Shown: piece after piece, positions 12,417-33,359 of the stretch | How the letters are laid out: each line of letters opens with the position of its first letter | Numbering within the stretch: the stretch's first letter is position 1 | Assembly: GCA_945868575.1 (NCBI GenBank) | Contig: CAMBMH010000025.1 | Coordinates: 1 to 33,359 of the forward strand | DNA from: Singulisphaera sp. GP187 | GTDB lineage: Bacteria; Planctomycetota; Planctomycetia; Gemmatales; Gemmataceae | DNA length: 33,359 nucleotides | Reading direction: 5' to 3' | Translations under genes and position numbers: made by a program | The notes under the pieces: generated by a model | What the model saw: the letters and a program-made list of their open reading frames with translations, nothing else | What the model was told of the DNA's origin: nothing | Database searches by the model: none

Positions 12417-13544
12417 ATGGTTTCTCCCAGCCGACCCGACGCCCCTGTCAGCCTTGACGCACCTCTTCCGGGTGTGGTGGGCGAAGCCCCATGTATGCGC
12501 GATGTTTTTCGGTTGGTGCGTCAGGTTGCGCCCAGCCATGCGACTGTATTGGTGATTGGAGAAACGGGTTCGGGCAAGGAGCTCGTCGCAAAAGCGGTTC
12601 ACACCCTTAGTTCTCGCCATGATGGTCCCTATGTGCGGGTAAATTGTGGGGCGCTCAATGAAAGCCTTTTGGAAAGTGAACTTTTCGGCCATGTAAAGGG
12701 CGCTTTCACAGGAGCCATCGAAAACAAAACTGGCCGCTTTGAGGCGGCTCATGGCGGGACGATCTTTCTTGACGAAATATCGTCCATGAGTTTCAAGCTC
12801 CAGGTGAAACTTTTGCGCGTTCTCCAGGAAAACGAATTTGAACGGGTGGGCGAAAGTCGCACCATTCGGGTCGATACCCGGGTTGTGGCCGCCACCAATC
12901 AGCTTCTGGAGGATGAGGTTGAAGCGGGGAACTTCCGTGACGACCTCTATTATCGACTCAATGTGGTCCCCATTTACCTCCCACCTCTGCGTGAGCGTCG
13001 ACTGGACATTCCCAATCTTGCCAGACACTTTGTCCAAAAGCACGCGATCCTGAACCGGGTGGGCGTTCCGGAAATCCACCAGGCCCTGATGGACCGGCTA
13101 CTTGCGTATGATTGGCCCGGCAATGTTCGCGAACTGGAAAATTACCTTGCCAGGGTGGTTGTGCTGAGTGGTGGCAAAGGGCGGACGGCCGATGATATCG
13201 CACCCCCGGGACAGTCTCCCCGCCGATTCATGGCCCCGGCTGGTCGCCTCGCGAAGGGTGGATCAGGGGACCTTGCCAGTCTGATACGACAGGTTGTTCG
13301 GGCCGGCGTCCGCAGTATTCCCGAGGGAATGCTCCACGAGCGAATTGTCGGGTCCGTGGAGCGGGAATTGATCGAACAGGTCCTCGAAGAATGCGACCAG
13401 GTACAGATCAAGGCGGCCGGACGCCTTGGTATCAATCGCAACACATTGCACAAAAAAGTTTCTGATTTTGCCAAACCAACAGGAGGCGACTCCGGGGCAT
13501 CCCCGAGAGAAAAGCCTACCGGGGATGGCGGGGGTGACCAATGA
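12417..13544 (+). CDS. sigma-54-dependent transcriptional activator (AAA+ and Fis-type HTH, no receiver domain)
   Basis: This 375-residue protein is an enhancer-binding protein for sigma-54 RNA polymerase. It has Walker A GETGSGKE (48-55), the sigma-54 contact loop GAFTGA (95-100), Walker B GGTIFLDE (113-120), the arginine-finger region [10 protein letters not shown] and PLRER (173-193), and WPGNVREL (233-240). A C-terminal Fis-like helix-turn-helix is at about 325-348 ([18 protein letters not shown]). Only about 20 residues precede the AAA+ core, so no receiver, GAF or PAS input domain is present. Its stop overlaps the start of a dCache/HAMP membrane protein (ATGA), so that protein is the obvious candidate for its input. 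The final 30 residues are Gly/Pro-rich. The Shine-Dalgarno is weak. The target genes may include the downstream ceramidase-like gene. Confidence 0.93.
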
Positions 13545-15022
13545 GCGATATTCACTCCGCGATGGATGCCCCTTCCGGGGGGGTCGGTCAGGGACTTTCC
13601 TTCTCATCCCGATTGCGATGGGTTTTGGCGGGATTTCTTCTCGCCTGGCTGCTTTTTGTGGGATTGTTCGCCTGGTTTTTTGTCCGCCGGTCCCTCTTTC
13701 AACAGGTCGATTCCGTCGCGATCAATCAACTCCATTCCGCCGCGGCCAGTCTCGATGACAGGCTGGAGCGACTTGAGACGCTGACTGAATCCATCGCCCG
13801 GTCGCTGGCCGTGCAATGGGGGCCCAAGCCCGTTGCTCCCCTGGTCGCAAAAGCCCTTCTGGAGACGACCCTTTCCTCCCTCACACCAGAGGAGGCGGCG
13901 GTGATTTACCTTGCCGTGGAGGGAGTTCCATCATCCAACCCGGAAGCGCTGATATGGTTTCGTCGTGATAAACCACCCACCCGGATCATTCCAGGCGGAC
14001 TGATCCGTTACGATTTCCACAAGGAATCGGCGGTGACCAACTGGTACCAAAAGCCAAAACAGACACGCAAGGTGTTTATATCCGAGCCTTATTATGATCT
14101 TGGTGGATCCGAACAGAAGGTAATATCGGTCACTGCCCCCGTGATTGACCCACAAGGGGTTTTTCGCGGAGTGGTCGGGATCGATATCCGTATCGAGGCC
14201 CTTGAGCAGGTTCGGCGCAGGCTCCACTTGCGTCCGGCAGAATTCGACGAACTTCATACTCCGATCCACGAGACGGGCTTCATCTGCTCCCCTCAGGGGA
14301 AAATCATTGCCCATCCCGACTCAAGGCTGTTGCCTTCCCCGGGCAATCCCGAAGGTGTCTCGGTCGAAACCCTTCCCATGGGCCCGGAAATCCTGGCGTC
14401 GCCTGATGGATTGCTGATGGAAATGATCGATAACATTCCCCAGAGGATTCTTTGGTACACATCCATCCGTACAGGGTGGAAGTTGGTTTTTATTGTCCCT
14501 GAAACCCTGCTTGCCGCCCCGGTTAATGTTTTGGCCCTTCAGCTTTTGGCGGTTTTCGCGGCGGGTTCGGTCGTGATCATCGTTTTGGTCTCGATCATCG
14601 CCAGAAAAATGGCGGAACCGCTTGAGGTTTTGAGAATGGGGGCGCTCGCGAATTCCACCCAATCCCCCATGGTGCATGCCCTTGCCCTTCGAAACGACGA
14701 GATTGGCCTGGTAAGCCGTTGGTTACTGCGGCTCTCCGAAAAGGCCACCGAGCAGGATAACCGCAACCGGATCGAATTGATGCGCGCGTTCCGGCTCGAA
14801 CTGGCTCGTCAATTGGCGGATTTGAAACTTGGAGTCGGCCCCGAGGCGATCGATTGGAATGAGGAACAGGTCGCCCGCGAGCTGCAATCCCAGGGGTATC
14901 CCGTAGAACCCGCCCAGGTGAAAATTCCCGGGCGCAAACTGGTTTACGGTGAAAACATCCTGAATGTCCAGCTAAGTGACGACCTTGCCCAATCGGTGAG
15001 TTTGATTGTGTCCAACACCTGA
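13541..15022 (+). CDS. membrane sensor with dCache and HAMP domains but no known output domain
   Basis: The 493-residue protein has a first transmembrane helix at about 27-50 ([20 protein letters not shown]) and a large outside domain at about 55-330. That domain has dCache hallmarks ([55 protein letters not shown]). A second helix (about 332-356) follows, then a HAMP-like segment with the NDEIG motif (about 357-405). After that there is only a short tail of about 90 residues ([20 protein letters not shown]). No histidine kinase, methyl-accepting, cyclase, GGDEF or PP2C motif is visible. Dimeric Cache proteins normally sense small ligands such as amino acids or carboxylates. The four-base overlap with the sigma-54 activator suggests that the tail passes the signal to that protein directly. 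That is an inference. Confidence 0.85.
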
Positions 15023-19434: not shown

Positions 19435-21783
19435 CTATCGCGGCTTGCGCATCACCCAGATGTCGGTGACATAGTGGCGATTGCGCCAATTGAGATGGGT
19501 TTCGTCCATCGCCTCCCAGGTCAGGGTGATCTTTCCATCCTTGAGGGCTTCCTGGGGAACCTCAAACTCGTGAAGGGTCACCTGGCCATAGGTTTCCCCT
19601 TTTTTCAGGAGTTTGGCGCGCTTGCCATCGACCATAAGTGGGGATTCCCGTTGGGAAAATAATCGGACAATATGGGGTGTTGCCGGATCCAGTGCTTCGT
19701 AGGTAAGTCCCGTCGGTATTTCGTCCTGATAGACATGCCACGCCAACCGCAGGGGATTCCTTTCGGGCCCCAGGTTTCGCTGGGTCGGACCAGTCAAAGT
19801 GTTGGCGTTGCGGATGGCATCGCCCATATCCTGGAGTTTCACCATGCGCGGAGATCGGCCAACATGACCAATCACATCATAGTAACCTCCTGGACCGGAA
19901 TTTTCCCAATTTACAATCTTTTGAATCGTTTTAAGCTGCTCCTCTTTGGAGGACATTTTGCCAATCAGGTTCAATTGGTCTTCGATAAACCATCGATTAT
20001 TCAATGGATAATCGAGATAGTCAAGTACCGCGCCCCGTTCATAGCCGCTGGCCTGGTGGCGGGGCATACTGGTCTGCAATCCAACAGACTTGAACAACGA
20101 ATCGCACAAAGCCACAATTTTCATCCTTGTTTCGGCAAGGATCGGTCGGGATTCGGCTTCCTTTAGCTTGGCTCTTGCCAAGGCAAACGACCTGGTGGGT
20201 TCATCAGGATCGGCTTTCGCCAAAATCGCCAGTGCTTCCTGCTCCAGTCGGGTCTCGTTAAGCAGACGCTGCCTCGTGTAGGCATCATAAAAAGCCCGCA
20301 TCAGGTGCATTTCAAAGCGCCAATTGGCTGATGTGTCCCCAAGTTGCGAGGCAAGGAGTTCCCAGAGGATGATTGTGGAAGAAACGGATCCGTTGGTTGC
20401 AAGGGGGCCGCGCCAATTGGTCTCAAGGGCAAGAAGCGCATCCGCACCCGCGTTGGCCAAATCTGGGCGAAAATAGAACCGTGCATAATCCTTCGCGATT
20501 TCGCGCACCGGCCGATTGGGCTCCCAACCCAACTGGGACCAGACCGATTTGTTAAAATCATCATGAACCCCATCCGAATAGGTGAGGAAACCTTTGGTGT
20601 GTCTATAGCCATATTGGTAAATGGCCTTCATATCCGCGGGTCGGGGATTGACGGCTTCACGGCCAAGGGTCATTCCATAAGCCGGATCCCACCAGGGAAC
20701 CGGATATTGACAACGGACATTATGAGTGATGTCCGGATACCAACGGATCGGATAATTTTGAGGTAGTCTTTGGCGGGTTTCCTCCAGTGGCGGGGAACTT
20801 GGCCCCATGACCACACCTCCCAACCATGTCGGTTTTTTATCCGCGACATAAGCGTAAAAGAACTCGACATCCTTTTTCTTGAAACCCTGAAGGGAAAGCC
20901 AAATTTTTGCCTTTGGGTGGTGGTTGGAAACGGTTTTCGCCATTTTTTCAAGGAATGGGAGGAGGTTGTTGGCGTGGTTGTCTCCGGGGTCGCCTCCGGG
21001 GACAAAAACCGCATCGAGTCTTTTGCATGCTTTGTAGAAATCGTCCTGGAGTTTCAGGAAGGCAGCCTCCTTGGCGATATTGGGAACCTCGAATTGGACG
21101 GGAACCCAAACCCAGTGATCAAGATCATATTTGGCACAAATTTCAGCGATTTTCAGGTTCATCTCCGCCCGCGGAAGTTTCATGTGTGGGGACGGATCGT
21201 TATCCTCGAATGGAATGTTTTCGATGGCGTTTGCTCCGAAGATCGCGCTCTCGCGGAAGTGCTGGTCAAATTGGTCGACGGTCCATGCATCCCAACTGTT
21301 CGCCCGGGCTCGGTAGCCGATCTGATGCCCCCGAAGGGGGACATCGGGCGCTGATACACAGGAAAACCTGGAATCCAGGGATAGACGCCCTTTGGACCAT
21401 TCCAGAGTTCTGAGGAGTTTGCCCACGCCAAACATCACTCCCCGACCATCGGTCCCCAATACCTCGACAATGGTTTGCGTTGTTTCCTGGGCCGGGATCA
21501 CCCGGATGGAAAAACCCTCCGGAGTTTGGGGCACCTTGTCTTTGGTTCCCAAACCCAGCCGGATCAGGGATCCAGCCGATTCGGTTGGGCTTTCGGAAAT
21601 CGGAAGGGTCAATCCCGTCCGTTTGGCGATTTCCTCGCTCAGGATGGTTGCGGCTGCCTTTTCCGCGGGGAATCGCTCACCGGCTCGAACGACAATGGCC
21701 GCGCGGCTCAAATCCAATTCCTGCCCAAGGGCCTGGTCGATAGAAATGGAAAACAAAAAAAAACAGAGGCACCAACGGACCAT
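19435..21783 (-). CDS. secreted alpha-glucuronidase-like glycoside hydrolase
   Basis: The 782-residue protein begins MVRWCLCFFLFSISIDQALG, a signal peptide. Residues about 25-140 resemble the N-terminal alpha/beta domain that precedes GH67 and GH20-type catalytic domains (AAATILSEEIAKRTG, then GVMFGVGKLLRTLEW). A TIM-barrel-like region starts at PLRGHQIGYRARANSWDAWT, with IFGANAIENIPFEDND, CAKYDLDHWVWVP and YPIRWYPDITHNVRCQYP. The closing 100 residues are beta-rich. It most resembles what is labelled alpha-glucuronidase-family glycosyl hydrolase in planctomycetes, so it probably releases a sugar acid from a glycan in the periplasm; catalytic acids were not assigned. I chose 21783, because GGGAG lies eight bases upstream. 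It faces away from the MFS/aldolase pair across a 380-base region, which suggests shared control. Confidence 0.75.
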   Translation of the reverse strand: MVRWCLCFFLFSISIDQALGQELDLSRAAIVVRAGERFPAEKAAATILSEEIAKRTGLTLPISESPTESAGSLIRLGLGTKDKVPQTPEGFSIRVIPAQETTQTIVEVLGTDGRGVMFGVGKLLRTLEWSKGRLSLDSRFSCVSAPDVPLRGHQIGYRARANSWDAWTVDQFDQHFRESAIFGANAIENIPFEDNDPSPHMKLPRAEMNLKIAEICAKYDLDHWVWVPVQFEVPNIAKEAAFLKLQDDFYKACKRLDAVFVPGGDPGDNHANNLLPFLEKMAKTVSNHHPKAKIWLSLQGFKKKDVEFFYAYVADKKPTWLGGVVMGPSSPPLEETRQRLPQNYPIRWYPDITHNVRCQYPVPWWDPAYGMTLGREAVNPRPADMKAIYQYGYRHTKGFLTYSDGVHDDFNKSVWSQLGWEPNRPVREIAKDYARFYFRPDLANAGADALLALETNWRGPLATNGSVSSTIILWELLASQLGDTSANWRFEMHLMRAFYDAYTRQRLLNETRLEQEALAILAKADPDEPTRSFALARAKLKEAESRPILAETRMKIVALCDSLFKSVGLQTSMPRHQASGYERGAVLDYLDYPLNNRWFIEDQLNLIGKMSSKEEQLKTIQKIVNWENSGPGGYYDVIGHVGRSPRMVKLQDMGDAIRNANTLTGPTQRNLGPERNPLRLAWHVYQDEIPTGLTYEALDPATPHIVRLFSQRESPLMVDGKRAKLLKKGETYGQVTLHEFEVPQEALKDGKITLTWEAMDETHLNWRNRHYVTDIWVMRKPR

Positions 21784-22163
21784 GTAGTAAGCTCCCATCA
21801 CGGAAGATTTCTTTTTATGTTAGAAAATCAGCTTGAGGAAACGGGTATCTTCTTCTCAATGGGGATCTTTCATTTGAGTTTCCCTTTCCTTTCGGTTCCT
21901 GGTTGGGTATTGGTATCACCATGATTTTTCGGTATCTGTGAAAAAACCGATTTTGGCCAAATTGGCGTGTTCCCGGTTTTCTCCTCGCCTCTTTGGCCCA
22001 CGAGACCGAAAACAACTTCTGGACAAGGTCCAACAAGGGTCCAACTTCCCGGACCGGTACCACCCCGGTTTTGGGCCCGGATCGTTGTTCAGCCCATCAA
22101 GAGGGATGTTTCTCCGAATCCTTCAAGCGGATCTGAGCCCTCAAAGACAAGGTCCCATTCATC
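21784..22163. other. divergent promoter region (380 bp) of the sugar-acid locus
   Basis: No gene is seen. The region separates the glycosidase gene (minus) from the MFS/aldolase pair (plus), so promoters for both should be here. The decanucleotides AAGGTCCAAC and AGGGTCCAAC stand at 22025-22034 and 22036-22045, one helical turn apart, about 120-140 bases before the MFS start. No clear -35/-10 pair was recognised. Confidence 0.45.
22025..22045. promoter_or_regulatory. direct repeat (GGTCCAAC twice), operator candidate
   Basis: Two copies of a ten-base element differing at one position lie head to tail with an 11-base period. That places both on the same face of the helix, as in sites for regulators that bind direct repeats. 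The location between the divergent genes makes a role in control plausible but unproven. Confidence 0.35.
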
Positions 22164-23423
22164 ATGAACTCCTCCCCAACCAGGCCCTCCAGATCGCCGA
22201 TTGCGACGGCATGGCTTGTGGTCGTTTTGCTGATGCCGGTTGCGCTGCTTAACTATCTCGATCGGCAAATGCTTGCCACGATGAAAAGCTCGGTGATGGC
22301 GGATATCCCATCCATTGAGACGAGTGCCAATTGGGGGTTCATGCTTGGGCAATTCAAATGGGTTTATGCGTTTCTGAGTCCGGTGGGTGGGATCGTTGCC
22401 GATCGATTGGGGCGGAAGTTGACCATCTGTTCGAGCCTTTTTGCCTGGTCGCTGATCACTTGGTGGACGGGACAGGTGGAGACCTATTCCCAACTTCTTT
22501 GGGCCCGGTCCTTCATGGGAATCAGCGAGGCGTTTTATATCCCCGCGGCACTTGCGCTAATCGCCGATTTTCACACCGGACCGACCCGTTCACGGGCCAT
22601 TGGAATGCACCAGATGGCGATTTACCTTGGGCAAATCGTAGGCGGATTTGGGGGATATGCGGCGGATGACCCAACTCTTGGTTGGCGGGGGACTTTTGCC
22701 CTGTGTGGAATTGCGGGGATTGTCTACACGGTTCCCCTTGCGCTCCTCTTGCCTCGCGCCTTGGGGGTTGGGTCTGTAAAGAGTGAAGAAACCGGACTTC
22801 CAAAAGCATCGTGGACAAAATTATTCGTAAATAGTTCTTTTATCCTTTTGGTGCTCTATTTTACTTTGCCTGCGCTTTCAGCCTGGATCGTGCGCGACTG
22901 GATGCCCACCATCCTCAAAGACAAGTTCGAGATTGGCCAGGGGATCGCCGGGGTTTCCGCAACGCTTTATTGGCAGATCGGCGCGATTGTCGGCGCGCTG
23001 ATCGGAGGGTTTTCGGCGGACAAGCTGATGCGCTGGACGATTCGCGGCCGCATATACGCGAGCGCCTTTGGCATGATGCTTTTGATTCCGGCGCTTTTTG
23101 GAGTGGGAAATGCCCCAACGCTATTTATTGCCGTGGCTTTTCTTGTATTGTTTGGCTTGGGTTGGGGGATTTTTGACACCAACAACATGCCCATTCTTTG
23201 CCAAATCGTCCCTCCGGGACTAAGGGCGACCGGTTATGGCATCATGAACCTGGTAAGTATCAGTTGCGGCGCCATCGCAGATTGGACATTTGGGATCCTT
23301 AAAGATTATAATTCGCCTCTCAACAATATTTTCGCCGTCTATGCCGCTTTCGCCGCGATTTCCGTTGTTCTTGTCCTTCTGATTCGTCCCAACCCCTCCC
23401 TAAAGGATTCTCAAGCCGCATGA
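22164..23423 (+). CDS. MFS transporter, probably for a sugar acid
   Basis: The 419-residue protein has about 12 hydrophobic helices. The first contains LNYLDRQML (the N-Y-x-D-R pattern of the anion:cation/hexuronate-type MFS group) and the loop between helices 2 and 3 has GGIVADRLGRK. This group imports hexuronates, galactonate and other organic anions with protons. The gene overlaps the next one by ATGA, so transporter and aldolase are made together. An uptake role for the acid split by that aldolase follows: N-acetylneuraminate or a 2-keto-3-deoxy acid precursor. No strong Shine-Dalgarno stands before the ATG. Substrate cannot be settled from sequence. Confidence 0.9.
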   Translation: MNSSPTRPSRSPIATAWLVVVLLMPVALLNYLDRQMLATMKSSVMADIPSIETSANWGFMLGQFKWVYAFLSPVGGIVADRLGRKLTICSSLFAWSLITWWTGQVETYSQLLWARSFMGISEAFYIPAALALIADFHTGPTRSRAIGMHQMAIYLGQIVGGFGGYAADDPTLGWRGTFALCGIAGIVYTVPLALLLPRALGVGSVKSEETGLPKASWTKLFVNSSFILLVLYFTLPALSAWIVRDWMPTILKDKFEIGQGIAGVSATLYWQIGAIVGALIGGFSADKLMRWTIRGRIYASAFGMMLLIPALFGVGNAPTLFIAVAFLVLFGLGWGIFDTNNMPILCQIVPPGLRATGYGIMNLVSISCGAIADWTFGILKDYNSPLNNIFAVYAAFAAISVVLVLLIRPNPSLKDSQAA

Positions 23424-24322
23424 AATACCCAAGGATCGAAGGTTTCGTTGCCGCAACATTCACCCCTTTCCAGACCGATGGATCGCTTGATCTGGAAGGG
23501 GTCGAGGGGATGGCCGAACACCTCGAAAAAAATGGTGTTCGCGCTGCGTTTATCGCCGGAACGACAGGCGAAAGCCCGTCCCTCACCCTCGAAGAGCGGT
23601 TGGGTTTGACAAAAAAGTGGTCCGAGGTGGTACGCGGAACCAAATTGGGCCTGATGGTTCATGTGGGGTCCAATTGTCTGGCCGATTCGCGAACCTTGGC
23701 CGTGCAGGCTCAGGAATTGGGCGCGATGGGCATCTCCGCTGTGGCACCTTCCTATTTCAAACCCCAAGCCCTTTCAGACCTGATTGATTGTTCGGCTTCG
23801 ATCGCTGCCGCCGCGCCGGGTTTGCCTTTTTATCACTATGACATTCCGATGCTAACCGGAGTGAATCACTCGATGGCGGCGTTTCTGGAACAGGCCCCGG
23901 CCAAAATACCCAACCTCGCTGGGATCAAATATTCCAACCCTGACTTGGTAACCCTTCAGGAGTGCCTGGCCCAAACCGATTTCGATGTGCTTTGGGGCAT
24001 GGACGAGGCCCTTCTTGCAGCGATGGCGCTTGGTGTTAGGGGTGCTGTGGGAAGCACCTACAACTTCATCGCGCCCATTTTTCACAAGCTTGTTGCCTGT
24101 TTTGAAAAGGGGGACCTCGTTTCTGCCCGGGCAGAGCAGATCAAAGCGGTCAAGTTTGTGCGCGCGCTCTCCAAGCGGGGCTATTTCGCATCGGCCAAGG
24201 TGCTTTTGGATCTGATGGGGTTGAAAGGTGGCGACCCACGGTTGCCGCACAAAAGCTTAAGTCCAACAGAAAAGGCCGAATTTGGAGTGGAGATGCGAGT
24301 TATGGGTGTTTTGGAAATTTAG
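23420..24322 (+). CDS. N-acetylneuraminate lyase / dihydrodipicolinate synthase-family aldolase
   Basis: The 300-residue protein has the length and motifs of the DHDPS/NAL class I aldolase family: GTTGES at 47-52, the Tyr of YDIP (Tyr140) and the Schiff-base lysine Lys170 in GIKYSNPD, with GSTYN near residue 212. The YDIP and GIKYSN wording is closer to N-acetylneuraminate lyase than to DapA, so cleavage of sialic acid to N-acetylmannosamine and pyruvate is the first guess. 2-keto-3-deoxygluconate-type aldolases share the fold and remain possible. The gene is translationally coupled to the MFS transporter, and a secreted glycosidase is divergent from the pair. It acts in the cytoplasm. A strong terminator follows. 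Confidence 0.9.
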   Translation: MKYPRIEGFVAATFTPFQTDGSLDLEGVEGMAEHLEKNGVRAAFIAGTTGESPSLTLEERLGLTKKWSEVVRGTKLGLMVHVGSNCLADSRTLAVQAQELGAMGISAVAPSYFKPQALSDLIDCSASIAAAAPGLPFYHYDIPMLTGVNHSMAAFLEQAPAKIPNLAGIKYSNPDLVTLQECLAQTDFDVLWGMDEALLAAMALGVRGAVGSTYNFIAPIFHKLVACFEKGDLVSARAEQIKAVKFVRALSKRGYFASAKVLLDLMGLKGGDPRLPHKSLSPTEKAEFGVEMRVMGVLEI

Positions 24323-24428: not shown

Positions 24429-24788
24429 TCAAGGGGTCAATTTGAGATCCAGGTTGGCGCCATTGGAAACCTGGACGCTTGCGTCCTTGTTTCCTTGACG
24501 GTACTTTGCTGGAACCTGAGTTGCTTCCGCTCCGCCTTTAAGTTGGAAGAAGTAAGCATACTTTCCGGGAATCGCTTTTCCCTTGAAGGTGCCATCGGCA
24601 CCAACTGGAGCATAGGCTGGACGACTGGTGTTGTCCATTGGTTGAAGGGCCAGTTCCATGTAGCCGACTGGCTTGCCAGCGGCATCCGTTACTTTGCCCG
24701 AAAAATCCACCGGCTCAGCAAGAGGTCTCGCCGACTCACCACAGCCCAATACTACCAGAGGCAGAAGGGCAACAAAAAAGGATCTCAT
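24429..24788 (-). CDS. small lipoprotein with carboxypeptidase-regulatory-like fold, behind DUF1559 copy 2
   Basis: The 119-residue protein starts MRSFFVALLPLVVLGCGES; LGC is a clear lipobox, so Cys16 should be lipidated. The rest (FSGKVTDAAGKPVGYMELAL, GTFKGKAIPGKYAYFF) matches a single beta-sandwich of the carboxypeptidase-regulatory-like/transthyretin-like type, common in planctomycete lipoproteins. It begins 36 bases after the DUF1559 gene on the same strand, without a terminator between, so the two are probably one operon. An AGGAAG is found nine bases before the ATG. Confidence 0.88.
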   Translation of the reverse strand: MRSFFVALLPLVVLGCGESARPLAEPVDFSGKVTDAAGKPVGYMELALQPMDNTSRPAYAPVGADGTFKGKAIPGKYAYFFQLKGGAEATQVPAKYRQGNKDASVQVSNGANLDLKLTP

Positions 24789-24824: not shown

Positions 24825-25919
24825 TTAGTCAAGGTTGACAACCGTCCCGTCCTGGGCGCCGACTGCGGCTTTCAGAATGAGGGCATCGGTCGATTCCTTG
24901 ATGGTACGGACGGATCCATCACACATGACGGCCATTGCAATGCCTGTGTGAAACGCAAAAGGTTCATCGTTGGGTCCGCAGTTATTGACGGACCAAGGGC
25001 AGGTGGTGCCTCCACCGATAGGGGAGTTATTGTTGTTAATCTTGGCAGTTTTATCGCCCAATGACTTGTTTGGACCAGAAAAACCATTGGTTGCGGCGTC
25101 GGGATCGGCCCATGCATAAACACGGCGAGCATTACCGGTAAGGCCGTCACCAGCCACAGAGTGACCGGGAGCAGCAACAGGTGAACTGCGGGAAGAACCC
25201 GCACCAAAGGTACCGAGCAGCGGGTGGGCGCGACCGGCATCTTCAATCACAAGGATTGTGTTGGACGAGCCGTCGAGGATGCTCGAGATTTTCGAACCTT
25301 CGGCGGTGAGTGGACCAAAGAATCTGCCCCGATAGGACGCGCTTCCTGTGCCAGACACGCGGGCCTTGGTGCCTTCATCGACATCGCTTACCGCGACAGC
25401 CATGTAATCGATAGGTCCGAGGTTTTCCCCGTTGGAGCGGGAGGTAGGGGACATGGGGGTGCTTGGGCAAACAAAGGTTTTGATTTGGGTTTGCGCAGCG
25501 GTCCAGCCTGAGGGATAGCCTGGATCATCATAATCCCGACCTTTGGTGGCAAGGATGTGAAGAAGCGCGCGGTTGTATCCCAATCCGGTGTTATCGGAAG
25601 AAACATCAAACATCTTGTACACATTTTCCTGCTCAAGATAAGGCAGGATTTGGGTACACCATGAGTGTATCATGTAAGTGGTGGTGTTACTTCCGGTGGA
25701 GTCAATCTGACCGGGGTGAGGGAGAACGCTATTGGTTGATTCAAAGTTGTGGAAGCCGAGGCCGATTTGCTTCAGGTTGTTCGAACATTGCATACGGTTG
25801 GCGGCTTCGCGGACCTTCTGAACGGCGGGAAGGAGCAAGCCGATCAAAACGGCAATGATGGCGATCACAACGAGCAATTCGATCAGGGTGAAACCCTGGC
25901 GCTTGCGAGAGAGGAGCAT
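24825..25919 (-). CDS. DUF1559 domain protein with type IV pilin-like N-terminus (copy 2)
   Basis: The 364-residue protein starts [16 protein letters not shown], a short basic leader and the prepilin-type G-F-T-L-I-E site, followed by a hydrophobic helix and [20 protein letters not shown]. Later come FVCPSTP, ILDGSSNTI and the C-terminal FHTGIAMAVMCDGSVRTI. I use the ATG at 25919, because AGGAA lies six bases upstream; the frame opens earlier at 25970, but that part lacks any leader character. The downstream small lipoprotein gene is probably co-transcribed. The probable site of action is the cell envelope. Confidence 0.92.
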   Translation of the reverse strand: MLLSRKRQGFTLIELLVVIAIIAVLIGLLLPAVQKVREAANRMQCSNNLKQIGLGFHNFESTNSVLPHPGQIDSTGSNTTTYMIHSWCTQILPYLEQENVYKMFDVSSDNTGLGYNRALLHILATKGRDYDDPGYPSGWTAAQTQIKTFVCPSTPMSPTSRSNGENLGPIDYMAVAVSDVDEGTKARVSGTGSASYRGRFFGPLTAEGSKISSILDGSSNTILVIEDAGRAHPLLGTFGAGSSRSSPVAAPGHSVAGDGLTGNARRVYAWADPDAATNGFSGPNKSLGDKTAKINNNNSPIGGGTTCPWSVNNCGPNDEPFAFHTGIAMAVMCDGSVRTIKESTDALILKAAVGAQDGTVVNLD

Positions 25920-26158
25920 GGATAATTCCTGTTTCACGGGATGTTTGAAAGGCGGACACTCGCCCTTCATCTTTTGCTAAGCTTAATCCAAAAAGAAATG
26001 TGGAGGTTAAGGAATGATGAAGTTTTTGTGAAGACATGTCCTTCATCAAAAATCCGAGCCTTGCCAAGGAATTTTCGCGCCTTGTTTCTTCCGAATGCCC
26101 CCATTTTTCCATTTAGGAGTTCTTTGTCCATTATTCTAATTTGCCAGCTGTCAAAGAA

Positions 26159-26180
26159 ATGAACGCCGCATGAACGCCGC
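26159..26180. repeat. perfect tandem 11-bp repeat
   Basis: ATGAACGCCGC stands twice, head to tail, at 26159-26169 and 26170-26180. It is GC-rich inside an AT-rich spacer. The 11-base period puts both copies on one helix face, as for a regulator site, although a chance slippage duplication is also possible. Confidence 0.7.
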
Positions 26181-26410
26181 ATTTACGATAAATACATACC
26201 GCCACCTTAAGAAAACATGGCCGGTAACGCTTGCTAACCATTTCGCGGAACCGGAGTCCAAATCTGGCGAAGCATTCCTTCAGGCAGACCAGTTCAGCTC
26301 AAAAACACAAATAAGAAGACAGGTTTAAGAGATTTGTTGATTTTGCATGAATACAGTGATAGATAATATTAAGTAACAATAAACCAAAAGAGTAACCTGG
26401 ATTTTAAGGG

Positions 26411-26452
26411 AAAAAAAGTGCCATGAGCCAACCATAAGCTAATCCATGGCAC
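26411..26452 (-). terminator. rho-independent terminator of DUF1559 copy 3
   Basis: On the minus strand GTGCCATG and CATGGCAC (26445-26452 and 26418-26425) form a perfect eight-base stem with a 19-base loop, followed directly by seven T. It lies about 50 bases after the stop of copy 3 and shows that copy 3 is not followed by a co-transcribed lipoprotein. Confidence 0.8.
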
Positions 26453-26499
26453 CATAATTGGAAAGGAAAACCGAAACCGAAATCAATCGGAGCCGAACT

Positions 26500-27507
26500 T
26501 TAGTCCAGAGTAAAAATTTCGCTTCCAGCTTTGGTGATTACCGCCGCCATCGTTTTCAGATCAATGCTCGACTTGATAAATCGAACCGATCCGTCTCCAA
26601 AACAGGCATTAATTCCACTCGTGTGGAAGCTGTATGCTTCATTTCGGTTGGTGACATTCATGGGTGCTGTGGTCACACTGGTGTTAATCGCCACATCTTT
26701 TGTGGGGATCGCACCTGCAGGGGAGCAGCCATCCACACTGAATGGTCCTTCCGAGTCAGCCCAACCGATTCCCTCATTGTTATGAAGCGAGTTTGTTGTA
26801 TCATAAGGAACCGTAACGATTCCATTGACAACCACATTGGGCCTGGAGGAGCATTCGACGAGCAAAGCCGTATTGGATGTTCCATCAAGAATCATCGCCA
26901 TTGCGGTGATTTCATTTTTGCACATGATGCCTCTTGTTAGCTGGTCATATTTCGCATTGTCGGGCTTGCCGGTATAAGGAAGACCATAAAGAGGGGCATA
27001 AGTGAAGGCTTTGACGCCATTCATTGTGTCGTAATCGGTTGGCCCAAGTGCGGCGGGGAAGCTCATCGCTGGGCGATTTCCGCTCTTGATACAGCTGGTG
27101 ACCGATGCACGGGAGGGAGTGGAAGGGCACTGGAAGGTTTTCACCTGAATGGTAGCCGCATTGAGGTTATTGGCGGAAAACCAGTGCTGATTTCGATCGT
27201 ATACCTTACCAACATTGCCTTGTTCAATGTAATCAAGGGTAAAAGACCGCCAACTGTGGTTGGTACCACTGGGATTTCCCGGGGCGACGGTGTCATACAT
27301 CGCGGCGGGGAAAAAGCCGTTTGTGTCGTGATAATTGTGCATTGCCAAACCAAGCTGTTTCAGATTGTTTTGACATTGCATGCGGTTGGCAGCTTCACGC
27401 ACTTTTTGCACGGCGGGAAGGAGCAAACCAATCAATACAGCGATGATGGCAATCACCACTAGAAGTTCGATCAGGGTGAACCCCCGACGCTTGCTGGAAG
27501 AGATCAT
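26500..27507 (-). CDS. DUF1559 domain protein with type IV pilin-like N-terminus (copy 3)
   Basis: The 335-residue protein starts [16 protein letters not shown], then the common helix and [39 protein letters not shown] and [18 protein letters not shown] complete the family pattern. The start has AAGGAA seven bases upstream. It is monocistronic: a strong terminator follows the stop and no small lipoprotein gene adjoins. Its upstream region shares a decanucleotide with copy 2 at nearly the same distance from the start. Confidence 0.93.
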
Positions 27508-27891
27508 GAATGAATTCCTTGGGGAGAAATTGGGAGTCCAGACCGGGGCGAGGTCTTAATTCTTAATAGTAAAGCGGTTAGGTTGTGAAACGGTTAAGAA
27601 ATCGAGAAGAAATGATGAAGAAGGTGAAACTTGGAGGAAAATTCAAAGAAAATTGCCCCGATATCTTGCCAAATTTATCTTATTTTCGGACAAGCTCCCA
27701 GCCATAACTATCAATATGTTGATGAGGGGCAAAATTATTTGCCCCTACAGGAAATAATGTCCAAGGTTGAATCGCGTCAGGCGGCTTGCTTTTCTTTTTG
27801 GGGAGTTCCTTAGCCCGTTCGTTTTCAAAGCTTCGCGCGTTTATTTGTCTTCCGTAAGGGATTCCCCCGCCCATCCTTGGCGGACACAGAA
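27508..27891. other. intergenic region (384 bp) with a REP-like palindrome
   Basis: No gene is supported. It holds upstream DNA of copy 3 (CGGTTA at 27575-27580 and 27591-27596, TCTTAAT twice at 27554-27567, AATGATGAAG at 27611-27620), the palindrome at 27726-27745, and the downstream part of the phytase-like gene, for which no T-tailed terminator was found. Confidence 0.55.
27726..27745. repeat. perfect palindrome GGGGCAAA/TTTGCCCC, REP-like
   Basis: GGGGCAAA (27726-27733) and TTTGCCCC (27738-27745) flank ATTA, then TACAGG follows. The pattern of a G/C-edged palindrome around an A/T centre followed by TAC is like dispersed intergenic palindromes known in other bacteria. Only this copy was seen in the window. 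It could also be a weak terminator for the phytase-like gene. Confidence 0.5.
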
Positions 27892-29088
27892 TCAGGGTTT
27901 TTCCACAGCAAAGGCATAGATCCTCAAAGGAGATGACGCGATAAAGTCGTTATCCGCGGTGATGAGCAGCAAACGACGACCATCAGGCAAATCCGGGCCA
28001 AAAGTCATGCCTTCAAATTTCTCCGGAAGGTCCGTTCCAACAAGCTTCATGGAACGATCCAACAGGTCAATAAACAGGGTTTTCGTGACAGGCATGATTT
28101 CCTGGGGAAGTTTTAATGCGGGAAGCTTTTCCAAAAGACTAATCTCGGTAGCCATCCGGGTGTCAATTTTAAATACCTTTTTAAAAGTAGCTTCCCTGTT
28201 TGCTTTTCCATCGCGCTCCAAAACAAGATATTCATAGTCGTTCAGGGCAAGAATTTCGCTGACTCCCAATCCCGGATTTTCGAGTTGGTAGACATACTCC
28301 CTGGTTTTGCCGGTCGACCGGTTTACTTCAAGGATGCGGCAATTGATTCCGACGCGTTGTTTTAGGCCGTCCACCCCGCCATCCTGAATCAGGGGGCTTT
28401 GCATGATTCCGATCAATTTGCTGCCATCGGGAGAAATCGCCAAACCTTCCATGCCCCGATTGGGTTGGCGCCCCATCAGGTTTTTTGGGGGGAGCTCATC
28501 ATCAGGCTTGGCGCTGATTTTGGCGGGAAGGAATTTGGCCGGAATCGGGTAGGTTTGGGTTCGCTTGCCACTTGTATCAAATTCATAAAGAGATGGGCCA
28601 TATTCGTCAGCGATCAGGATTTCGCCTTTGGGCCCCACGCGGACTCCCTCCGGGTCAAGCCTCCTCGACTTTTCGGGATTTTTTTTGTCGATCATGCTTA
28701 GGGCCCCACTGAAGCTCTGGCCCATTTCATTGGTCAAAAGCGTCGTGGAGGCCAGCTTGAGTTGGACCGGATTTTTGGATTCGGGATCAACCGTGATATC
28801 CATCATGTGGATACGACAGGGGTAATCTATGGCGCCATCTTTGGGCCCCCGATCCGAGGCAAGGACATAGCGGTTGCTTTTCCCGGAATAGGCAATTGCC
28901 GAACCCAATCCTCCCAGTCGATTCCAAGGGGTGCCATCCTGGAATTTTCCATTGAGCCCGGAAAGGTCGGAAGAATTGCCTGGAAGGGTTCCGATGCCGA
29001 TGAGGGTTACCTGGGCCTGCATCCAATCAGGTGCAGCTGCGATGGTTGCAATGGATAAAAGTCGAATAACCCAAGTGGAGTGCTTCAT
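27892..29088 (-). CDS. secreted phytase-like esterase-family protein
   Basis: The 398-residue protein has a signal peptide (MKHSTWVIRLLSIATIAAAP, probable cleavage at MQA). The mature part has the order of the phytase-like domain family (esterase-like activity of phytase): LGGLGSAIAYSGKSNRYVLA, SDRGP, RRLDPEGVRVGPKGEILIAD, EYGPSLYEFD, NRGMEGLAISPDGSKLIG, the EILALNDYEYLVLERDG segment, and FEGMTFGPDLPDGRRLLL near the end. These proteins are beta-propellers with acidic loops likely to bind calcium, located outside the cytoplasm. Action on phosphoesters is suggested by the family name but not proven for most members. It is transcribed alone. Confidence 0.88.
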   Translation of the reverse strand: MKHSTWVIRLLSIATIAAAPDWMQAQVTLIGIGTLPGNSSDLSGLNGKFQDGTPWNRLGGLGSAIAYSGKSNRYVLASDRGPKDGAIDYPCRIHMMDITVDPESKNPVQLKLASTTLLTNEMGQSFSGALSMIDKKNPEKSRRLDPEGVRVGPKGEILIADEYGPSLYEFDTSGKRTQTYPIPAKFLPAKISAKPDDELPPKNLMGRQPNRGMEGLAISPDGSKLIGIMQSPLIQDGGVDGLKQRVGINCRILEVNRSTGKTREYVYQLENPGLGVSEILALNDYEYLVLERDGKANREATFKKVFKIDTRMATEISLLEKLPALKLPQEIMPVTKTLFIDLLDRSMKLVGTDLPEKFEGMTFGPDLPDGRRLLLITADNDFIASSPLRIYAFAVEKP

Positions 29089-29573
29089 GGATCGGTTGCC
29101 TTAGGTTGGGAGGATCAAAGCGCGATAAGGGTGGTTTTATGCACCAAGTTGGAAATCCTTTGTGCTGTTTTGATGAAGATTGTTAGGTTGGATCTGGCGC
29201 CACGAAGGAACACTTTTGACCAACTGCAACAAAAAAGGATTTTGTGGCAGGTACTTTGGCGAAAATCCGATCCAACGGAAACGATAATGGGAAATGTTTG
29301 CCGTCGGAGCCCATGCACCCAAAGCGTCCATTGCTCGTCTGATTTCGTCCCAAATGGAATGCGATCCAAATATATAGTCGATTGATGAATCTGTTTTCAG
29401 ACCATTTATACACAGATTCTACACAATCGCAATTGTGAAAAAATGAATAAGGATTCATGAAGACTTGTTGAGGTGGTTCCATTTATCGATTCGTGGTGTT
29501 AACTTACCCCTGTGGCAGGATTCCCTCCCGTTGATTTGGTCGGGGCTCTGTCTCACTTTTAAGGAGTTTCTTT
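29089..29573. other. divergent intergenic region (485 bp) before DUF1559 copy 4
   Basis: No supported gene. Two small palindromes stand close together: CACAAT/ATTGTG (29422-29437) and ATGAAT/ATTCAT (29443-29458). Both lie 115-150 bases before the copy 4 start and could be operator sites. No -35/-10 pair could be assigned with confidence. The translation start of copy 4 has AGGAG seven bases upstream. Confidence 0.5.
29422..29458. promoter_or_regulatory. two adjacent palindromes upstream of DUF1559 copy 4
   Basis: CACAAT-CGCA-ATTGTG and ATGAAT-AAGG-ATTCAT are perfect six-base inverted repeats with four-base centres, separated by five bases. Their centres are 21 bases apart, two helical turns. 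They may bind a dimeric regulator in tandem, although the arms differ in sequence. Confidence 0.35.
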
Positions 29574-30653
29574 ATGACACCATCGATTCGAGCCTTTGGC
29601 GGATCCCGTAAGGGTTTTACGCTGATTGAATTGCTCGTTGTGATCGCCATCATTGCTGTTTTGATTGGTCTTTTGCTGCCTGCCGTGCAAAAAGTTCGCG
29701 AAGCCGCCAACCGCATGCAGTGCCAAAACAACCTGAAGCAAATCGGGTTGGCTTTCATGAACTATGAGAGCACAAACAACTTTTACCCCAAGGGTCCCTA
29801 TGACGGTGATCCGAGCCTTGCGGGTATGGTTTACAATGAACCCGCCGGAGCATACGAGAGCGGCACAACCTGCTGTAACTCCGCCAGCCCCAACGGCTGG
29901 AGCCACTGGTTCAAAATTTTGCCTTACATCGAACAGGACAATGTCTACAAACTGGCCAACTTCACTCTGCCCCCGATCCACTCGGGTCGCCCCGCCAACT
30001 ACAACGGCGAAGATGATGTTGCCCGCTGCTTGATCAAGACCTACTACTGTCCTTCACGTCGCGCCCCCACCGGTTATGGCTCGGCCCTTTTGGGTCGCTG
30101 TGACTATGGCGGTAGCGCCGGTTTCTATCAGGGCGAAGTTCACGAAAACTACGGCGATATCCCAGCCGCACCCTTGGGCATGAGCCCTCGCCGCAATGAA
30201 CGCACCCCCGAAAACTTTGGTGACATGGCCGGTCGCAAGGGTTATATCTGTTGGTCAGGCCAGGGGGCGACCCGCCGCAATGCCGATGTGCTCGACGGTA
30301 CCTCCAATAGCATCATTGCAGCCGAAAAGTGCCTTCCCCCAAGGCGCCACGGGTCTGATGGTGGCGACAACGAGCGCTGGAACAACGCGGGTTGGGATGA
30401 ATGCGTGCTTCGTTATCACTTTCCACCCAAATCCGACACTGACCCCACCATTCCAGTAACCGGAACCGTTACCGACCCCACCAACGGAGCAAATGTTTGG
30501 CGCCGTTATTTCGGTTCCAGCCACACCGGCGGTCTCAACGCCGTTATGGGTGATGGATCTGTCAAGTTTGTCAGCTTCACCGTGGATCCAGTTGCCTGGA
30601 TGCGCGCTTGCGTGATCGACGATGGCCAGGTCGCAACTCCTCTTAACAACTAG
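29574..30653 (+). CDS. DUF1559 domain protein with type IV pilin-like N-terminus (copy 4)
   Basis: The 359-residue protein starts MTPSIRAFGGSRKGFTLIEL, with the same hydrophobic helix and [20 protein letters not shown] as the other copies. YYCPSRR, DVLDGTSNSIIAAE and SHTGGLNAVMGDGSVKFV follow. It has a good AGGAG seven bases upstream of the ATG. A 64-residue lipoprotein gene follows 28 bases later, then a strong terminator, so the two form a two-gene unit. This copy is the only one on the plus strand in the window, and its codon use favours C-ending codons more than the others, which may mean high expression. Confidence 0.94.
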   Translation: MTPSIRAFGGSRKGFTLIELLVVIAIIAVLIGLLLPAVQKVREAANRMQCQNNLKQIGLAFMNYESTNNFYPKGPYDGDPSLAGMVYNEPAGAYESGTTCCNSASPNGWSHWFKILPYIEQDNVYKLANFTLPPIHSGRPANYNGEDDVARCLIKTYYCPSRRAPTGYGSALLGRCDYGGSAGFYQGEVHENYGDIPAAPLGMSPRRNERTPENFGDMAGRKGYICWSGQGATRRNADVLDGTSNSIIAAEKCLPPRRHGSDGGDNERWNNAGWDECVLRYHFPPKSDTDPTIPVTGTVTDPTNGANVWRRYFGSSHTGGLNAVMGDGSVKFVSFTVDPVAWMRACVIDDGQVATPLNN

Positions 30654-30681
30654 TCTGGCAAGCCCAACGGAGAAGATTCCC

Positions 30682-30876
30682 ATGAAACATTTCACACTTA
30701 TGGTTTTGGCTCCTCTTTTTATCCTCAACCTTCTCACCGGTTGCGGTGACGACAAGACCGTCCTTCCCAAAGCCCTCACCGAGGAGCAAAAGAAGGCGAT
30801 CAAGGCAGAAGATGAATCGGTTGCCAACGAAGAGGGTGGCCGCGTAAAGAAGAAGGCTGGCAAGGCGACCAAATAG
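30682..30876 (+). CDS. small lipoprotein (64 aa) paired with DUF1559 copy 4
   Basis: The protein starts MKHFTLMVLAPLFILNLLTG followed by Cys21 (LTGC lipobox), then a charged tail with LTEEQKKAIKAEDESVANEE and a Lys-rich end. The mature part of about 44 residues is probably helical. Small lipoproteins of this kind repeatedly follow DUF1559 genes in planctomycetes; their function is unknown. The start has GGAG about ten bases upstream; a longer frame from 30622 overlaps the DUF1559 gene and is not used. It ends just before a terminator. Confidence 0.88.
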   Translation: MKHFTLMVLAPLFILNLLTGCGDDKTVLPKALTEEQKKAIKAEDESVANEEGGRVKKKAGKATK

Positions 30877-30903
30877 GATTGCCTTGCAATGTGTTAACCC
30901 ATC

Positions 30904-30933
30904 GCGGCCCACGAATCCAATTGCGTGGGCCGC
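30904..30933 (+). terminator. strong hairpin terminator after the copy 4 unit
   Basis: GCGGCCCACG (30904-30913) and CGTGGGCCGC (30924-30933) form a perfect ten-base GC-rich stem with a ten-base loop. The following sequence (TTGCATTATC) has only a weak T content, so it may need help from Rho or act as an RNA 3' end. Confidence 0.7.
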
Positions 30934-30986
30934 TTGCATTATCTAAAATGATTTGGAAATCTCCACGAACTTGACGGGAAAACGCA

Positions 30987-31631
30987 ATGATCAAGACCAC
31001 AAATCTTCCGATTGTCCTATTCGTTTTGGGCCTTGTGGTTGGGTGTGGTGGGGAACCCAAACCCAAAGGGAAAACCCAGGCAGGTTTGCCCGAGGGTTAT
31101 GTCGCGCCCCAATCCACAGATCATCTTCCCCTGCATGACAATCCCGACTATGCCAACTGGCAGCGATTCAAGGTGGGGACGAAGGTCGTTCGGAAAAAAA
31201 TCTCCAAAAACCCTTCAGACCAGGTGACCGAGACGCAATCCCTAAGGCTTTTGGAAGTCAACGGGGACAAGGTGGTTTTGGAAACTCAAATCACTGTCGA
31301 ACGGCCCAATTATCCGAAGAAGGACAATGCGCCTTTCAAGATTGAACATGCCGCGAAATTCCGCCTTCCCGCCAATCTCAAATTGGAGCAGTTCACCAAG
31401 CCTTCCATCAAAGCCAAGGAAATCGCCGAAGAGTCGATCAAGGTTTTGGGAAAAGAATACAAGGCAAAGCTTTTCACTTGGGAAGACAATACCGAATCGG
31501 GACCCATGCCCCACAAATATTGGGAGTCGATGGAATTCCCCGGGCGGATGCTCAAACATGAGGCGGTTGTGAAAAAAGACAACGCCGAAACCTCAACAAC
31601 GGAAGAGGTCATAGAGGTGGTGACTCCGTGA
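30987..31631 (+). CDS. lipoprotein of unknown function (first of a tandem pair)
   Basis: The 214-residue protein has a lipobox (VLGLVVGCGG, Cys20). The mature part has YANWQRFKVGTKVVRKK, ETQSLRLLEVNGDKVVLETQ and a C-terminal SGPMPHKYWESMEFPGRMLK, followed by TEEVIEVVTP. It is beta-rich and shares its layout with the next protein (W..F..GT, a long K/E linker, a GP.P..W.S...PG segment and an E-V-.-.-V ending), so the two are probably paralogues. The stop overlaps the next start as GTGA, so they are translated together. Located at a membrane outside the cytoplasm. Family not recognised. Confidence 0.82.
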   Translation: MIKTTNLPIVLFVLGLVVGCGGEPKPKGKTQAGLPEGYVAPQSTDHLPLHDNPDYANWQRFKVGTKVVRKKISKNPSDQVTETQSLRLLEVNGDKVVLETQITVERPNYPKKDNAPFKIEHAAKFRLPANLKLEQFTKPSIKAKEIAEESIKVLGKEYKAKLFTWEDNTESGPMPHKYWESMEFPGRMLKHEAVVKKDNAETSTTEEVIEVVTP

Positions 31632-32329
31632 TCGGATCACCCTTGCGCCATTTCTTCAGAACCCAGGCAGGGAGCTTGCTCCCGGCTTGGGTGATTGTGT
31701 TTTTGGCATGTTTTCCTTTGGGATGTTTCAGGGACTCTGGAATTGCTGGCCCGGATGCTATGTCCAAAGCCTTATCGTCCCAACCGGAATGTGATGATTG
31801 TCCCAGCGCAAAAGTTTTGCCCGACCCGGAACCGGGACCAGGAGAAATGGTGAACCCGGTTTTTTTGAGTTGGCGGATCTATCCCGAAGGAACGAGTACC
31901 GTTCTCTCGACCCGGGAGGGAGATAGAGTGGAGGCTCGCGAAGTGACCAAACTTTTAGAAAAAAAAGAACACACCATTACCCTATCGGTCGAGAAAAATC
32001 GCCTGGACCAAGGCAAAACCATCGATACGAAACGCCAGACTGTGACCCTTTCCTATTTGATCCCCAAAAACGGATCCTCAACAGGAAGAAATCTGGACGC
32101 GACCCCAGCCAAGCTTGATTTGTTGGGAAAAACCTTTGCCTCGTTCCTTTCGGAGAGTAGTGGCAACGATTCGTTAGGAGCGTTTGTGACCCGTCGTTGG
32201 GACAGCGACACCATTCCCGGGTTGCTTATTCGCCAGGAAAAGCAAACGACCCCGGCAGGTGGGGGCGCGGTATTTTTAACAGTGACGGAACTTGTTGAGT
32301 TAAAATTTCCCAAATGGGATGCCAAATAG
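31628..32329 (+). CDS. lipoprotein of unknown function (second of a tandem pair)
   Basis: The protein starts at a GTG inside the preceding stop (GTGA) and is 233 residues. A hydrophobic segment AWVIVFLACFPLGC gives a lipobox at PLGC (Cys33), although the preceding leader is long. The mature part begins with a Cys-containing SQPECDDCPSAK stretch, unusual for a lipoprotein, then LSWRIYPEGTSTVLS, a beta-rich middle and ends VTELVELKFPKWDAK. The pattern RRWDSDTIPGLLIRQE parallels the YWESMEFPGRMLKHE segment of the preceding protein. The pair probably arose by duplication and may act as partners. Function unknown. Confidence 0.78.
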   Translation: MIGSPLRHFFRTQAGSLLPAWVIVFLACFPLGCFRDSGIAGPDAMSKALSSQPECDDCPSAKVLPDPEPGPGEMVNPVFLSWRIYPEGTSTVLSTREGDRVEAREVTKLLEKKEHTITLSVEKNRLDQGKTIDTKRQTVTLSYLIPKNGSSTGRNLDATPAKLDLLGKTFASFLSESSGNDSLGAFVTRRWDSDTIPGLLIRQEKQTTPAGGGAVFLTVTELVELKFPKWDAK

Positions 32330-32376
32330 GTTTTTATTGGCAACCCAAAAGATCCATTGGTCCGGCGTATGGAAAA

Positions 32377-32646
32377 CTATTCGATCTCCTCGATCGACCC
32401 ATCCGGACGAATGTCGATCTCGCGTACCTTTCCGTTTTTCTCTTTTCCCTGGACTTCGAAAACGCCGCTTTGCTTTTTCCAGGCGGTATCAAACTCCACT
32501 CCGGGGAGATTGTCCTGTGCGATTTTCATAATGTTTGGGGGAACATCCTTCAGGTCAATCGTGGTTTTCTTCCCTTTTGCGGCTCCACCACAGTCCAAAA
32601 GAAGACCAACCTGGGCGAGAATCAGAAACCCGTTTGCATAGCGCAT
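32377..32646 (-). CDS. small secreted PepSY-like protein paired with DUF1559 copy 5
   Basis: The ATG at 32646 overlaps the stop of the DUF1559 gene by one base (TGATG), a strong sign of translational coupling. The protein has 89 residues. A hydrophobic leader (FLILAQVGLLLDCGGAAKGK) may be a lipoprotein signal, although Asp just before the Cys is unusual. The mature part (VPPNIMKIAQDNLPG, then VFEVQGKEKNGKVREIDI, and DGSIEEIE) has the fold pattern of a single PepSY-like unit: a helix followed by beta-strands. PepSY units often inhibit or bind peptidases. A TTG one codon earlier is not used. Confidence 0.82.
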   Translation of the reverse strand: MRYANGFLILAQVGLLLDCGGAAKGKKTTIDLKDVPPNIMKIAQDNLPGVEFDTAWKKQSGVFEVQGKEKNGKVREIDIRPDGSIEEIE

Positions 32647-33359
32647 CAAAAATCTCCCTGGGAAATCACCTCGCCACCGGACCTTGTCGAAAGGGCCTTG
32701 TAGGTCGCGTAGGTGGTGGCACCGCCAAGCGAGCTCACATGCCCGTCCGCAAAAACAAAATTTCCCGATCCTGTATGTCTTGAGGTGAAGTGATTGGCCT
32801 CCTCGGGGTAGGCGGGGCCCTTGAAGGTTTCTCCCGTGTGGGCGAGGACAAAGTTCGAGGCATTACTTTCCTGAATGGGGAGCGGGGAGCCTGGGGTTGG
32901 TCCCTGGTTGGCGCTTGAGACCGCTCCCACCCAGGTTGACTCGGCATGGTAAAAGGATCGCTCACCCACCATAAGCGTGTTTGAGGTTCCATCGGTGATG
33001 TCCGAGATTCGGACTTTGCTTCCCCGATAAAAGACCCCCTCGCCATCCACACCTGGCTCACCAATGCCAAAATTGCCCACATAGTTTCCGGGGGCAACAG
33101 TGCAGGTGGTTGAGTTCAGTTGACCGGAGGTTCCACGAGGGCCGACCGGAAACGCCTGGGAGGGGGATGAATCCGAGGGGCAGAGATAGGTCTTGATCAG
33201 GGTGGTTCGAGGCCCGTTCATTGCGGGTGCCTCGATAGGGAGGTTAAAATCGATTGATTTGTAAAGGTTGTCCTGCTCGATGTGGGGCAACAAATACGAG
33301 GCCCAACCCCATCCAGGTCCGTTGTCCGTGGCCCAGGTGGAAACTCCAGAGGTGTATCC
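32646..33359 (-). CDS. DUF1559 domain protein (copy 5), 5' end outside window
   Basis: The frame is open to the right window edge, so the pilin-like N-terminus is missing. The visible part begins GYTSGVSTWATDNGPGWGWA, then LLPHIEQDNLY, TYLCPSDSSPS, ISDITDGTSNTLMVGER, and ends with TSRHTGSGNFVFADGHVSSL and an unusually short tail. These are standard DUF1559 segments. It is coupled by a one-base overlap to the PepSY-like gene, the tightest of the DUF1559-small-protein pairs here. Confidence 0.92.
   Translation of the reverse strand, partial: GYTSGVSTWATDNGPGWGWASYLLPHIEQDNLYKSIDFNLPIEAPAMNGPRTTLIKTYLCPSDSSPSQAFPVGPRGTSGQLNSTTCTVAPGNYVGNFGIGEPGVDGEGVFYRGSKVRISDITDGTSNTLMVGERSFYHAESTWVGAVSSANQGPTPGSPLPIQESNASNFVLAHTGETFKGPAYPEEANHFTSRHTGSGNFVFADGHVSSLGGATTYATYKALSTRSGGEVISQGDF

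Follow-up and report, generated by a model that had tools for sequence, protein, structure and literature searches.

A secreted glycosidase-like gene that diverges from a transporter gene, itself overlapped by an aldolase gene, raises the question of whether the three encode a single route for a sugar acid and, if so, which acid it handles. The initial annotation proposed such a route of release, uptake and aldol cleavage, with sialic acid, a ketodeoxy acid and another acid as candidate substrates. We analysed the locus in the window, meaning the whole stretch of 33,359 nt, which is contig C25 of a Planctomycetota genome (G000; 4.29 Mb, 302 contigs, 90% complete), and in the corresponding locus, L014, of a sister genome (G069; 100% complete). 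ORF calls placed the three genes at the positions and in the orientations first described:

19435-21801, minus strand: secreted glycoside-hydrolase-like gene, 788 aa (ORF call)
21802-22163, no strand: divergent intergenic region between the hydrolase and MFS transporter genes, 362 bp
22164-23423, plus strand: MFS transporter gene, 419 aa; PF07690 (MFS_1), 1.7e-40
23420-23423, plus strand: ATGA stop/start overlap coupling the transporter and lyase genes (sequence read)
23420-24322, plus strand: gene for an aldolase of the N-acetylneuraminate lyase (NAL) type, class I, 300 aa; PF00701 (DHDPS), 1.7e-48

The letters at the transporter stop and lyase start read ..GCCGCATGAAATAC.., bearing out the proposed ATGA coupling, and an identical overlap occurs in L014. 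The sister locus also retains the order of hydrolase, transporter and lyase, with identities of 70, 73 and 73%, respectively. Comparison of the 362-bp divergent spacer with that of the sister species revealed no clear operator or conserved block. The region after the locus (24825-33359) contains several genes of the DUF1559/prepilin type and a gene for a phytase-like esterase. Synteny with the sister species extends to the first of the DUF1559 genes and to a small lipoprotein-like gene at 24429-24788. Elsewhere in the window, at 12417-15022, a gene for a sigma-54 activator shares an ATGA overlap with one for a dCache-domain membrane sensor.

To identify the lyase, we compared it with solved structures and with family models. 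The best solved relatives were 5afd (215 bits), 6h4e (190 bits) and 6arh (180 bits), which we take to be the NALs of A. salmonicida and P. mirabilis and human NPL, respectively; the best DapA among solved structures scored ~112 bits. Lys170 and the YDIP motif, both noted at the outset, are present in the alignment:

23837-23839, plus strand: codon of the catalytic Tyr140 of the YDIP motif (alignment)
23927-23929, plus strand: codon of the Schiff-base Lys170, invariant in the alignment

Lys170, Tyr140, Asp195-Glu196 and Ser212 match the corresponding residues of 5afd and 6arh, and GTTGE at residues 47-51 fits the GTTGE/GSTGE motif of NALs; the roles of the individual residues are those generally known in the family. 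According to NCBIfam, the best-ranked model was NF003164 (147 of 281 bits), and TIGR00683 scored 123 of 382 bits. Because both scores lie below the equivalog cut-offs, we named the enzyme NAL-type. Judged by its sequence, it is most likely an N-acetylneuraminate lyase-type class I aldolase, with cleavage of Neu5Ac as the predicted reaction. In a tree of lyases, the MFS-linked enzymes and one unlinked lyase formed a single group (support 98/97). YDIP occurred in 19/19 MFS-linked lyases, and YHIP in human NPL and most lyases of clusters containing NanM and an SSS transporter.

The transporter had been described as being of the hexuronate type. This was fair at the family level: its top NCBIfam match was TIGR00893 (D-galactonate), at 112 bits against a 395-bit cut-off. 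It also missed the cut-off of the sialate:H+ symporter model TIGR00891 (NanT), with 44 of 553 bits. Since it is not a NanT, it is a candidate for a new family of sialic-acid carriers, that is, a candidate importer from a planctomycete-specific, non-NanT group. Homologues with E ≤ 1e-90, mostly 56-74% identical, were present in 120 of 398 genomes of the class (~30%). In three genomes (L111, L191 and L193), the partner of the orthologue is another DHDPS-family enzyme, and the specificity of the transporter may therefore be less than strict. In L111 (6317-8544), as in the other two loci, the enzyme that follows the transporter gene has the motifs YNMP and IKDSSGD and is ~26% identical to the window lyase.

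We then inspected the neighbourhoods of the transporter gene in relatives, using 60 loci and four added ones (64 in all) and counting partners within 6 kb. An orthologue of the lyase, with at least 49% identity, occurred in 19/64 neighbourhoods. A NanM-like kelch mutarotase gene was found in 14/64, an N-acylglucosamine 2-epimerase (AGE) gene in 8/64 with a ninth just outside the 6 kb, a BNR sialidase-like gene in 6/64 and a SASA-like esterase gene in 3/64; about 38 of the 64 had none of the partners searched for. A Pfam search independently confirmed the AGE positions, and PF24996 confirmed the identity of NanM in L083. Sialidase, AGE, NanM, transporter and NAL genes shared one cluster in 5/64 loci (L143, L167, L168, L170 and L186), and a NanM-like gene accompanied the transporter-lyase pair in 10 of 19 cases. 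Beyond the window genus, the transporter (~58-68% identical) adjoins the lyase (49-54%) in 17 further genomes from several families. This adjacency is more frequent than expected by chance, given several thousand genes per genome. The linkage is scattered over the transporter tree, which fits an old association that was lost repeatedly. For more distant lyases of the phylum, the cluster partners are AGE and an SSS-NanM fusion, and the MFS protein thus appears to substitute for SSS. As in a sialic-acid catabolic operon, lyase and transporter occupy one unit, evidenced by the ATGA overlap and the recurrent linkage. Together with the NAL residues, the NanM, AGE and sialidase genes beside the orthologues narrow the substrate, originally left open, to a sialic acid.

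One part of such a pathway was not recognised. The initial annotation found no ManNAc epimerase in the window, and this held when the search was widened: neither NanE (PF04131) nor AGE (PF07221) was detected in the window, in the whole of G000 or in G069, so the epimerase of a sialic-acid catabolic operon is lacking from these searches of both genomes. Across the 19 genomes with the linked pair, NanE was above the cut-off in none. AGE was absent from 10, comprising the window genus and 8 of the 17 others, mostly those without a linked NanM; it was present in 8 of the 10 genomes with a linked NanM and in 1 of the 9 without (Fisher p 0.005, kinship ignored). A recognised ManNAc epimerase is therefore missing from about half of the linked-pair genomes, a concrete gap. 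In the genomes without AGE, either a different enzyme does its work or the lyase yields something other than ManNAc. We found no alignment columns that separate the lyases of the reduced modules from those of the full modules, and the two sets form no separate clades in the lyase tree. As the lyase sequences do not split the two types of module, an unknown epimerase or secondary loss is favoured.

The hydrolase was more difficult to place. Its N-terminus is visibly signal-peptide-like, and the sole Pfam trace was a sub-threshold match to GH20b (E 0.023). Nothing exceeded the threshold in Pfam, NCBIfam or the PDB, the last searched both by single sequence and by profile. With respect to GH67, the window protein matched no domain and three members of its family matched GH67N below the cut-off (best 0.0012); with respect to GH33/GH156 sialidases, there was no Pfam BNR match and no sialidase among the PDB profile matches. 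A distant relative in L029 matched DUF4838 just short of the cut-off (8e-6). Relatives occurred in 9 of 102 genomes of the order and in 17 of 392 of the phylum, the latter mostly partial and distant. An AlphaFold2 model built from 20 sequences (pLDDT 80, pTM 0.81) and the sub-threshold matches gave the following features:

minus strand, domains: GH20b/GH67N-like, residues ~28-150; TIM barrel, ~156-410; a helical region; a C-terminal beta domain
20989-20991, minus strand: codon of Asp271 (PGGDPGD) at the end of barrel strand 4, candidate catalytic acid, nearly invariant in 20 relatives
20731-20733, minus strand: codon of Asp357 (YPDIT), a candidate base at the end of strand 7; relatives have D or E here
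20572-20574, minus strand: codon of Asp410 (YSDG), a candidate base at the end of strand 8; relatives have D or E here

In Foldseek searches, the model matched GH115 (6e-19, the top match), GH67 (1e-14), GH84 (8e-14) and GH20 (2.5e-13) with TM scores of ~0.4-0.48; that for GH115 was ~0.47, without a sequence match. Among viral structures, it matched only generic TIM barrels. In the model, a strand at 264-268 precedes Asp271, and the conserved Asp271, Asp357 and Asp410 are consistent with a functional glycosidase like those of GH67/GH115. The label 'alpha-glucuronidase-like' thus stood for the fold, with GH115 and GH67 on top, and failed for the sequence, which no family claims. The modelled protein represents a candidate unclassified glycosidase family of GH67/GH115/GH84 architecture. 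In L016 (2332-10008), a relative of the hydrolase gene lies near genes for a 3-keto-disaccharide hydrolase domain protein, an SSS transporter and the exo-muramidase NamZ.

Several other explanations of the pair were weighed. That the lyase is a redundant DapA is extremely improbable: it shares Pfam family PF00701 with DapA, but a paralogue on contig C13 (302 bits, motif YNIPGRT) is by far the stronger DHDPS-family match in this genome, and the window lyase is only 27% identical to it. The C13 paralogue has Asp-Ser and Val where the window lyase has Asp195-Glu196 and Ser212, and the YDIPMLTG of the latter is without the substrate-binding Arg. A third DHDPS-family paralogue, with a GSMGD motif, is encoded on contig C37 (L109, 6530-7477). 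It is also highly unlikely that the pair forms a hexuronate or aldonate route in which a KDG/KDGal aldolase is supplied by a galactonate-type transporter. The top NCBIfam match of the transporter and the three genomes that pair its relatives with another DHDPS-family enzyme would fit this route. Against it, the archaeal KDG-aldolase and HpaI models scored 109 and 101 bits versus 147 for the NAL model, the lyase keeps the sugar-end residues of NALs, and the neighbouring partner genes are those of sialic-acid metabolism. Both the DapA and the KDG-aldolase identities were dropped on residues and scores. A pair lacking NanM and AGE might instead serve another nonulosonic acid; with Kdn, for example, the lyase would yield mannose and no ManNAc epimerase would be required. 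This possibility draws on the distribution of AGE with respect to NanM and on the lack of NanE in the 19 genomes. We nevertheless judge it unlikely, as the lyases show no split by clade or column and the pattern is equally well accounted for if genes were lost repeatedly or if an unrecognised epimerase is at work.

The remaining question is whether the hydrolase belongs with the pair. Were it to represent a new family of sialidases or glucuronidases, it could free the sugar acid that the transporter imports and the lyase cleaves. The divergent layout in the sister species, the secretion of a hydrolase whose fold is closest to alpha-glucuronidases, and the presence of the transporter in 8 of the 9 hydrolase-bearing genomes of the order (Fisher p 0.015, kinship ignored) all speak for this, as do the overlap of the hydrolase gene by another MFS gene in G038 and the fact that the sister genome's sole sialidase candidate is a widespread BNR_2 protein. 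However, the syntenic block also retains the unrelated DUF1559 and small lipoprotein-like genes, the hydrolase and transporter genes are far apart or on different contigs in six genomes (G009, G010, G012, G076, G077 and G079), and the hydrolase gene is in none of the 62 other transporter neighbourhoods, its adjacency being confined to one genus. For these reasons, the pairing of a glucuronidase-like enzyme with a NAL, first considered an unusual pathway, is more likely a neighbour effect, and we regard a three-gene pathway as rather unlikely. It is distinctly unlikely that the hydrolase founds a new GH family that releases a sialic or other sugar acid while the pair handles a nonulosonic acid such as Kdn without an epimerase. 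A role of the hydrolase in substrate release is possible. Of the route originally proposed, uptake and aldol cleavage are thus supported, by the gene context in relatives and the NAL residues, and release is not, given the absence of a family and the one-genus linkage.

Our preferred explanation, to which we assign a probability of about 0.72, is that the transporter and lyase are a translationally coupled pair for the import and cleavage of sialic acid and that the hydrolase stands apart from them as an unclassified glycosidase with a TIM barrel. Counting against it are the lack of NanE and AGE in the searches of G000 and G069, the roughly 38 neighbourhoods with none of the partners, the other DHDPS-family enzyme beside the transporter in three genomes and the low score of the transporter with TIGR00891. 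From gene structure, homology, residues and linkage, we infer the substrate, the transport and the direction of the reaction. The transporter would bring free sialic acid (Neu5Ac or a closely related nonulosonic acid) through the inner membrane, and the lyase would convert it to pyruvate and an acylmannosamine via a Schiff base on Lys170. In planctomycetes, the two genes would form the core of a nan operon; more complete versions of it also include the NanM mutarotase, the AGE epimerase, a sialate esterase and a sialidase.

Genes that may act in release are found elsewhere in the genome. On contig C41 (L108, 1988-6207), genes for a SASA esterase, a BNR-repeat protein and a sulfatase lie one after the other, and this row is a possible unlinked unit for the release of sialic acid; its BNR-repeat protein is 57% identical to the product of a gene that immediately precedes a lyase gene in G297. 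The adjacent esterase and BNR genes count in favour of the preferred explanation. On contig C2 (L107, 2766-4019), a BNR_2 protein scored 273 bits. Similar scores were obtained in most related genomes searched, and it is likely a core protein rather than a dedicated sialidase.

That Planctomycetes have NanA, and that this enzyme is related to the eukaryotic branch, is already known (PMC2693436), and NanT-annotated sialic-acid genes have been reported in Thermoguttaceae (PMC11929135). A literature search, mostly of papers outside subscription, found no published account of the MFS-linked module. The transporter group points outside the NanT, SSS, TRAP and ABC types of sialic-acid carrier, with a substrate that is directly testable, and the hydrolase contributes a usable structural model for its candidate family.

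Compared with known systems, the window lyase resembles the NALs of A. salmonicida and P. mirabilis and human NPL in fold family and in its Lys, Tyr, Asp-Glu and Ser residues, at 37-38% identity. It differs from them in having YDIP rather than YHIP, in its linkage to an MFS gene and in scoring below the equivalog cut-offs. With the NanT/NanX family of sialate:H+ symporters, the transporter shares the MFS superfamily and a presumed role, whereas it is nearer to the D-galactonate (ACS) subfamily and Spns-type transporters. The hydrolase shares an N-terminal alpha/beta domain and a TIM barrel with GH115, GH67, GH84, GH20 and DUF4838 proteins and has candidate acids at the barrel end, but its sequence matches none of them significantly. 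Finally, the fuller planctomycete modules share partner genes with the Bacteroides-type AGE clusters, which contain GH33, NanM and an SSS transporter. In contrast to those clusters, the MFS protein appears to stand in for the SSS fusion, and the window genus retains the transporter and lyase only.
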